Of a stretch of 64,000 nt of DNA, positions 21,316 to 60,487 are shown one piece after another; positions within the stretch are counted from its first letter, which is position 1, and every line of letters begins with the position of its first letter. Below the pieces are notes generated by a model. It did no database searches, was not told where the DNA came from, and was given only the letters and a program-made list of their open reading frames with translations. A program made the position numbers and the translations under genes. Where the stretch lies: NCBI GenBank assembly GCA_019454145.1, contig CP075366.1:124001-188000 (forward strand), given 5' to 3'. The DNA is from Fimbriimonadaceae bacterium. Its GTDB lineage: Bacteria > Armatimonadota > Fimbriimonadia > Fimbriimonadales > Fimbriimonadaceae.

Positions 21316-21327
21316 GAGACTGAGTTT

Positions 21328-58615: not shown

Positions 58616-58659
58616 AACCCCTCCCTTAATCCCTCCCCGAACTTCGGGGAGGGAATTCC
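58616..58659. repeat. Family A palindromic repeat, copy 8
   Basis: AACCCCTCCCTTAATCCCTC then CCCGAACTTCGGGGAGGGAA: same orientation as the copy at 59168. The 331-base gap 58453-58783 holds only this and the copy at 58739. Confidence 0.9.
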
Positions 58660-58738: not shown

Positions 58739-58783
58739 AGGAACTCCCTCCCCGAAGTTCGGGGAGGGTAGGGAGGGGTTGCC
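58739..58783. repeat. Family A repeat at the left edge of the DUF559 gene
   Basis: GGAACTCCCTCCCCGAAGTTCGGGGAGGGTAGGGAGGGGTT pattern, inverted relative to the copy at 59168. Contains four G-runs. Abuts the stop codon of the DUF559 gene. Confidence 0.92.
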
Positions 58784-59134
58784 CTACCGAGCCACGGCCT
58801 CAACAATCCGCTCAACAACCCAATCAATTTGCTTGATAACGTCTAAATTGTCGAAATACAGGATTTGCCAGCCTTGATCATGGAAAAATTTTTCACGAAT
58901 TAAATCAGCAGATCCAGATTCGGCGTGGCTCTTTCCAATTAGTTCAATAACAGTTTTTGACTTGAGATGAGCAAAGTCAGCTATGTACGGGCCAACTGGA
59001 TGCTGGCGTCTAAAGACGAGGTTTTCTGATCTAAGAACACGGAGTCGGCTCCATAATGCCGCTTCTACAGTGGTGAGGTTTTTGCGATTATTTTTACTAA
59101 AAGATTTAGCTTGGCTAGTTGCAAAGCGTTTCAC
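58784..59134 (-). CDS. DUF559 (VSR-like) endonuclease-fold protein
   Basis: 116 residues. DUF559 proteins share the very-short-patch-repair (Vsr)/PD-(D/E)xK fold. Visible blocks: LTTVEAALWSRLRVLRSENLVFRRQHPVGPYIADFAHLKSKTVIELIGKSHAESGSADLIREKFFHDQGWQILYF. The family core is 'F-R-R-Q-x-P-i-g-x-Y-i-x-D-F-x-x-x-x-x-x-l-x-i-E-i-D-G/x-x-x-H'; Asp in IADF, Glu in VIELIGKSH supply the metal site (family ELDG; here ELIG, losing the second Asp). It sits between two inverted family A repeats, 58739-58783 and 59168-59211, and between two PEP-CTERM paralogues. The nick or strand specificity is unknown. Confidence 0.85.
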   Translation of the reverse strand: MKRFATSQAKSFSKNNRKNLTTVEAALWSRLRVLRSENLVFRRQHPVGPYIADFAHLKSKTVIELIGKSHAESGSADLIREKFFHDQGWQILYFDNLDVIKQIDWVVERIVEAVAR

Positions 59135-59167
59135 AAAATATTTCAGCTGAGCGAATCAAAGAATATC

Positions 59168-59211
59168 AACCCCTCCCTTTATCCCTCCCCGAAGTTCGGG
59201 GAGGGAATTAG
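59168..59211. repeat. Family A repeat at the right edge of the DUF559 gene
   Basis: AACCCCTCCCTTTATCCCTC CCCGAAGTTCGGGGAGGGAATTA pattern. With the copy at 58739 it forms inverted ends of a segment of about 470 bases carrying only the DUF559 gene. Confidence 0.92.
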
Positions 59212-60198: not shown

Positions 60199-60241
60199 AA
60201 CCCCTCCCTTAATCCCTCCCCGATCTTCGGGGTGGGAATTC
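60199..60241. repeat. Family A palindromic repeat, copy 11
   Basis: AACCCCTCCCTTAATCCCTC, CCCGATCTTCGGGGTGGGAA: one base off in the right arm. Confidence 0.85.
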
Positions 60242-60302: not shown

Positions 60303-60342
60303 GATTAACCCTCCTCCCCAGAATTGGGGAGGAGGGTTAGCT
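60303..60342. repeat. Family A palindromic repeat, copy 12
   Basis: GGATTAACCCTCCTCCCCAG, AATTGGGGAGGAGGGTTAGC: longer outer arms AACCCTCCTCCCC/GGGGAGGAGGGTT. Confidence 0.85.
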
Positions 60343-60353
60343 TTGATTTGGGT

Positions 60354-60372
60354 GGCACGGGTTTCAACCCGT
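60354..60372. repeat. Palindrome CACGGGTTTCAACCCGTG
   Basis: Eight-base arms around TC, within a GTGGCACGGGTTTCAACCCG context. Only copy in this window, but of a type usually dispersed. Confidence 0.6.
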
Positions 60373-60422
60373 GTAGGTGAAACATCTAATTTCGCGTAGC
60401 AAACGGGTGTTAGTTGCTTGAT

Positions 60423-60453
60423 CCCTACCTTTGCATTGCAAAGATAGGGGCAC
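60423..60453. repeat. Family B palindromic repeat, copy 5
   Basis: CCCTACCTTTGCATTGCAAAGATAGGGGCAC pattern; precedes a family A copy. Confidence 0.87.
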
Positions 60454-60487
60454 TGGCATCTCAAATAAATGCAACCTAGCCTTAGAG

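Follow-up and report, generated by a model that had tools for sequence, protein, structure and literature searches.

The window, a 64,000-nucleotide stretch of a Fimbriimonadaceae genome, raises the question of why a lone DUF559 gene should stand between two inverted palindromes, and whether gene and repeats together form a mobile unit. Comparison with Pfam profiles gave a PF04480 (DUF559) match of 90.5 bits for the encoded protein against a gathering score of 20.6; DUF559 was its sole Pfam match, and the PF01797 (HUH Y1) genes of the genome are located elsewhere. The repeat copies at 58746 and 59183 are mutually inverted and bracket the gene with their tails inward and their hairpins outward (Table 1), the left tail stopping ~6 bp from the stop codon and the right tail beginning ~36 bp past the start codon; PEP-CTERM paralogues are the neighbours on both sides. 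An earlier, sequence-only reading had described a lone DUF559 gene framed by inverted palindromes, and a ~470-base one-gene unit flanked by PEP-CTERM paralogues. Both descriptions are borne out (58746-58768 and 59183-59205 around 58784-59134 on the minus strand; 58742-59211 for the unit), but the end string AAxTCCCTCCCCGAAxTTCG, which was said to read outward, actually appears reading inward from both outer ends. PADLOC gave no defence-system match, Rfam gave no known RNA family at gathering score, and no transposase gene was found within DUF559 units.

Table 1. Features of the DUF559 locus, in window coordinates
Feature	Position	Strand	Support
DUF559 gene, 116 aa, predicted Vsr-fold PD-(D/E)XK nuclease	58784..59134	-	PF04480, model, dN/dS
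Left end: hairpin 58746-58768 with 2-nt loop, third-strand tail GGGAGGGG at 58771-58778 toward gene (triplex motif)	58746..58778	+	
Right end, inverted copy: tail CCCCTCCC at 59170-59177 toward gene, 5-nt linker, hairpin 59183-59205	59170..59205	-	
Entire unit, ~470 bp: DUF559 gene and two inverted ends	58742..59211	.	
Gene-less third copy beside the unit: tail CCCCTCCC at 58618-58625, hairpin 58631-58653	58618..58653	-	also in sister species G154
Gene-less fourth copy, imperfect hairpin	60201..60236	-	

The palindrome CCCTCCCCGAASTTCGGGGAGGG occurs exactly at 58631-58653, 58746-58768 and 59183-59205 and with two mismatches at 60214-60236, and each of these four copies carries the one-sided tail CAACCCCTCCC. 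The fourth copy was not found at the corresponding place in the sister species (G154). Many gene-less palindromes had been reported as scattered through the window, but the exact family has few, namely those at 58631 and 60214 and a weak one at 21327. The strict triplex motif (a perfect 7-bp pyrimidine-purine hairpin, a 1-6 nt loop and a mirror third strand in which no more than one mismatch is allowed) occurs six times in the window, three of these at the DUF559 locus, versus none in 10 Markov controls. Genome-wide, 14 palindromes lie within two mismatches and 55 fit a broader pattern, with a control count of 0 for each. The 2.76-Mb host genome contains only three DUF559 genes, and all three have inverted palindrome-plus-tail ends whose sequence differs from pair to pair; its two RAYT transposase genes are bracketed by other palindromes, none of the triplex-motif type.

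Two further observations concern RAYT genes. Positions 60340-60460 of the window hold a pair of palindromes, GGGTGGCACGGGTTTCAACCCGTG and CCCTACCTTTGCATTGCAAAGATAGGGGCAC, that belong to other types and resemble those around the two RAYT genes of the genome, and this stretch was not found at the corresponding place in the sister species. One DUF559 gene of the host genome, L015 (G000:C1:825387-825701), has an in-frame stop, lies ~1.7 kb from a RAYT gene (823333) and is accompanied by palindromes of a third sequence family.

Structure and identity of the end repeats

The key feature of the ends is the one-sided tail. Across families with differing arms, this tail mirrors the pyrimidine arm of the hairpin: the mirror fit is better than a direct-repeat fit in 77 elements and worse in 14 (p = 1e-11), and a direct-repeat tail, which would make two equal half-sites, was rejected as the poorer fit. 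The linker measures 3 nt in 71 of 85 good mirror matches. Where the arm has a T, the facing tail base is T or A in 67% of cases, as compared with 36% when tails are swapped between elements, and the two ends of one unit (L304) differ by a change that is present in arm and tail alike. A purine-motif intramolecular triplex requires mirror symmetry with such substitutions (G.G-C, A.A-T and T.A-T triads), and the features of the class II purine motif (pyrimidine arm, purine arm, short loop, mirror third strand) are present in these repeats. The tracts can form a G-quadruplex, and this structure alone might be taken to account for them; however, the mirror tract lengths and the covariation of tail with arm are better accounted for by base triads.

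In Holder et al. (2015, PMC4666352), Box C/PIT/TMECO is an intergenic repeat with 23 copies in E. coli K-12 and occurrences in >260 genomes, has the class II purine motif with second loops T-T-A or C-C-G, forms five inverted pairs and is linked to genome instability; the single-stranded E. coli motif forms a triplex in vitro, in vivo triplex not being shown there. Because the structure, the loop sequences and a TTA-loop copy beside ycjD, the DUF559 gene of E. coli, all agree, the repeats flanking DUF559 are, as judged from their sequence, the intrastrand-triplex motif Box C/PIT/TMECO. The sequence-only reading missed both the mirror-image tail and this identity.

The E. coli gene ycjD lies between fabI and sapF, and a type A (TTA loop) motif is present close to its 3' side. 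No clear motif was found on its 5' side, so the unit looks decayed. The gene with its flanks (K-12 L100 6000-6900) occurs in 3333 of 5426 E. coli genomes, and one strain carries ycjD without its C-terminus. A strict empty site at ycjD was looked for and not found, the two inspected strains that lack the gene carrying a TetR/RND efflux operon after fabI instead.

DUF559 proteins and their flanks across phyla

An AlphaFold2 model of the window protein (pLDDT 89.5) has as its nearest solved folds 3HRL, the structure of a gonococcal DUF559 protein (Z 13.9), the homing endonuclease I-Bth0305I (3R3P, Z 12.4) and Vsr with DNA (1CW0, Z 9.6), at rmsd 1.6-2.2; a sequence search was concordant for 3HRL and 3R3P. 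Based on the model, the protein is predicted to have the Vsr fold. In the window and sister-species proteins (ELIGKSH), Ile takes the place of the Asp that is nearly invariant in the ExDG-x2-H core; this Asp is present in most DUF559 members and is not required for membership.

We compared the flanks of DUF559 loci, picked by protein similarity and not by their flanks, with those of neighbouring, crudely called ORFs of the same DNA. DUF559 matches are present in 165 of 291 genomes of the host phylum. Inverted flanking palindromes are far commoner at DUF559 than at neighbouring genes, so that a comparison which the sequence-only reading had put forward as able to refute it came out in its favour: inverted flank homology was found at 33/60 DUF559 loci versus 3/125 ORFs in the host phylum, and at 46/75 loci versus 3/253 ORFs in other phyla (mostly Proteobacteria, with some Nitrospirae, Elusimicrobia, Rokubacteria, Cyanobacteria and others). 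The strict motif occupies both flanks, tails inward, at 32 of 139 DUF559 genes and at none of 391 neighbouring ORFs (p = 1e-20), while any motif is found at 82 of the DUF559 genes versus 28 of the ORFs and at none of the shuffled flanks; in ~40% of the 139 genes neither flank has a strict motif. Where similar hairpins occur on both sides, the extra homology is gene-side in 38 loci and outer-side in 7, and some families have the tail outward, for example on a Deinococcus plasmid. No clear paired ends were found at the gonococcal DUF559 locus (L325).

The similarity of end repeats tracks that of the DUF559 proteins (Mantel r = 0.35, 0/999 permutations), a covariation partly confounded by shared ancestry, and DUF559 paralogues of one genome have different end families at different sites. 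Within the host phylum, the median number of motif-type palindromes is 6 in genomes with DUF559 versus 1 in those without (p = 1e-8). Despite having no DUF559 match, 22 of 126 genomes contain at least 10 such palindromes, and in two motif-rich, DUF559-less genomes the palindromes have tails of this same kind. No such palindromes were found near 15 RAYT loci of motif-rich, DUF559-less genomes. A search of the open-access literature found no paper tying DUF559 to palindromes or triplex motifs.

Several features of individual genomes and loci are recorded here. At least 100 motif-type palindromes occur in G158, G161, G163, G183 and other genomes that have no DUF559 match. Instead of simple inverted ends, the DUF559 genes of L086, L073, L074 and L083 have long direct repeats of entire palindrome pairs on their flanks. 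In many DUF559 reading frames (L105-L184) the coding sequence continues into the repeat tail and so gives the protein a PSP/PHP-like end, and the proteins of one Variovorax lineage (unit B, below) begin with SRERERA, derived from the hairpin; annotated DUF559 protein ends may be artefacts.

Occupied and empty sites

At the matching site of the sister species the unit and both its ends are present, and comparison of the two DUF559 orthologues gives a dN/dS of 0.059 at a dS of about 1, indicating strong purifying selection. The window unit is old and stable, and common to the sister species. Other species of the host genus show no DNA match across the site, so that no empty site can be read at the window locus.

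Empty-site polymorphism, for which the sequence-only reading had suggested looking, is present away from the window locus: occupied and empty alleles of one site, the mark of a mobile element, were found in Variovorax and in Paraburkholderia (gene names at both junctions were taken from translated ends, not from annotation). Among 81 Variovorax species searched, the fadB-fadA junction holds unit A (21 species read), an unrelated unit B, a decayed B or a solo palindrome, holds other inserts, or is empty with a length of 17-20 bp. The A and B DUF559 proteins share 44-49% identity and have differing ends at this one junction. Flanks are near-identical between L212 (unit A) and L261 (empty), and also between L197 (A) and L218 (B), and the solo palindrome of L220 resembles what a B unit would leave if its two outer halves were fused. 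A tree of the flanks (282 columns) implies that the junction changed state many times, and its well-supported branches force at least six changes for A; recombination at the junction may explain part of these changes. In Diaphorobacter (L122), a DUF559 unit lies at apparently the same gene pair. At the Paraburkholderia acnD-prpF junction, the unit was seen in 8 of 99 species and the others read have ordinary short intergenic DNA. No target-site duplication was seen for DUF559 units. Among plasmid records, DUF559 is found in 33 of 72,556, a rarity that suggests that transfer is not frequent. Another insert of ~110 bp (CCCCCTTGCAGGGGGCAACACC...) is present at the Variovorax fadB-fadA junction in L266-L270 and L272.

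A candidate mobile unit and competing explanations

Taken together, the unit is probably, though by no means certainly, a minimal mobile element consisting of a DUF559 gene between inverted triplex motifs, with the gene-less motifs as its non-autonomous copies or scars. DUF559 is the best candidate yet for the enzyme that spreads Box C/triplex-motif repeats. We infer that the protein binds and cuts the motif, and infer likewise the route of movement. When the element becomes single-stranded during replication or repair, each end would fold as a hairpin or a three-stranded structure; the DUF559 protein would recognise the folded ends of its own family and cut or nick next to these, and either the unit or one of its ends would be moved or copied into intergenic sites, most likely by cutting and insertion or by break-and-copy. 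In a stronger proposal DUF559, a stand-alone Vsr-fold PD-(D/E)XK nuclease, would represent a mobility-enzyme class not known before: it would recognise intramolecular triplex ends, move the ~470-bp unit that encodes it and mobilise Box C/PIT/TM repeats in trans across bacterial phyla. We regard this proposal as evenly poised between true and false.

The main rival to spread by cut-and-insert or break-and-copy is homing, in which DUF559 would cut the empty or solo-palindrome allele and the unit would be copied via flanking homology, as for a free-standing homing endonuclease. The place of I-Bth0305I among the nearest solved folds, the two unrelated DUF559 lineages at one Variovorax junction together with the Diaphorobacter unit, and the solo palindrome at that same junction are all consistent with homing; however, action at one allele is insufficient for gene-less motifs at many unrelated sites and for within-genome paralogues at different sites, and we consider this explanation unlikely. 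On the other hand, DUF559 could be a passenger, a DNA-repair host gene enclosed by repeats that another enzyme, such as RAYT, moves. The Caulobacter DUF559 protein VsrA, held responsible for the SOS response in cells without a cytosine methyltransferase, has been proposed to function in mismatch repair (PMC12907096), and many motif-rich genomes lack DUF559. This reading nevertheless appears improbable, as the end family follows the DUF559 protein and the units contain no transposase gene; RAYT itself was rejected as the moving enzyme because its palindromes differ, those bracketing the host RAYT genes being of other types and the 15 RAYT loci of motif-rich, DUF559-less genomes having none of this kind nearby. 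A reading without mobility, in which the palindromes would simply terminate transcription or stabilise mRNA around a small gene, is scarcely credible although GC-rich hairpins adjoin stop codons, since paired motifs are absent at neighbouring ORFs, the mirror tail, inverted orientation and presence or absence at a junction are foreign to terminators, and the E. coli motif lacked promoter and terminator activity in earlier work, as cited in PMC4666352.

The mobile-unit reading places the element beside several known systems. REP/RAYT elements are likewise short, chromosomal, one-gene units with inverted palindromes bearing a one-sided tail and with gene-less intergenic copies, and the REP/RAYT-like layout with a different enzyme that had been proposed for this locus is upheld, with bracketing palindromes, gene-less copies and no PF01797 match. 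Whereas the REP/RAYT enzyme is an HUH Y1 transposase and the REP foot carries a GTAG/CGTC tag, the enzyme here is a predicted Vsr-fold PD-(D/E)XK nuclease and the tail (CCCCTCCC / GGGAGGGG) is a mirror of the arm with no such tag; the DUF559 unit is therefore not a REP/RAYT member. IS200/IS605 are also one-gene elements with folded single-stranded ends. Their enzyme is an HUH transposase, whereas the only gene of the DUF559 unit matches just DUF559 in Pfam. Vsr (Z 9.6) and I-Bth0305I (Z 12.4) have the predicted fold in common with the DUF559 protein, but DUF559 here has no methyltransferase or intron tie and is bracketed by repeats. Box C/PIT/TMECO, as described in PMC4666352, shares with the DUF559 ends the class II triplex architecture, the T-T-A or C-C-G loops and the sometimes inverted pairs; there the repeats were orphans for which Holder et al. 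found no adjoining mobility genes, whereas here they occur in pairs as the two ends of a unit with a DUF559 gene.

What is new here is the DUF559 nuclease as a candidate mobility enzyme of Box C/PIT/TM repeats. If this assignment is true, a repeat family that is among the most widespread in bacteria, across phyla, would have its missing agent, and a large uncharacterised protein family would have a role. The link to a specific nuclease family makes the origin, spread and function of the repeats testable, and the unit would, if the assignment holds, represent a type of mobile element whose enzyme chemistry and DNA end structure are foreign to known transposon classes.
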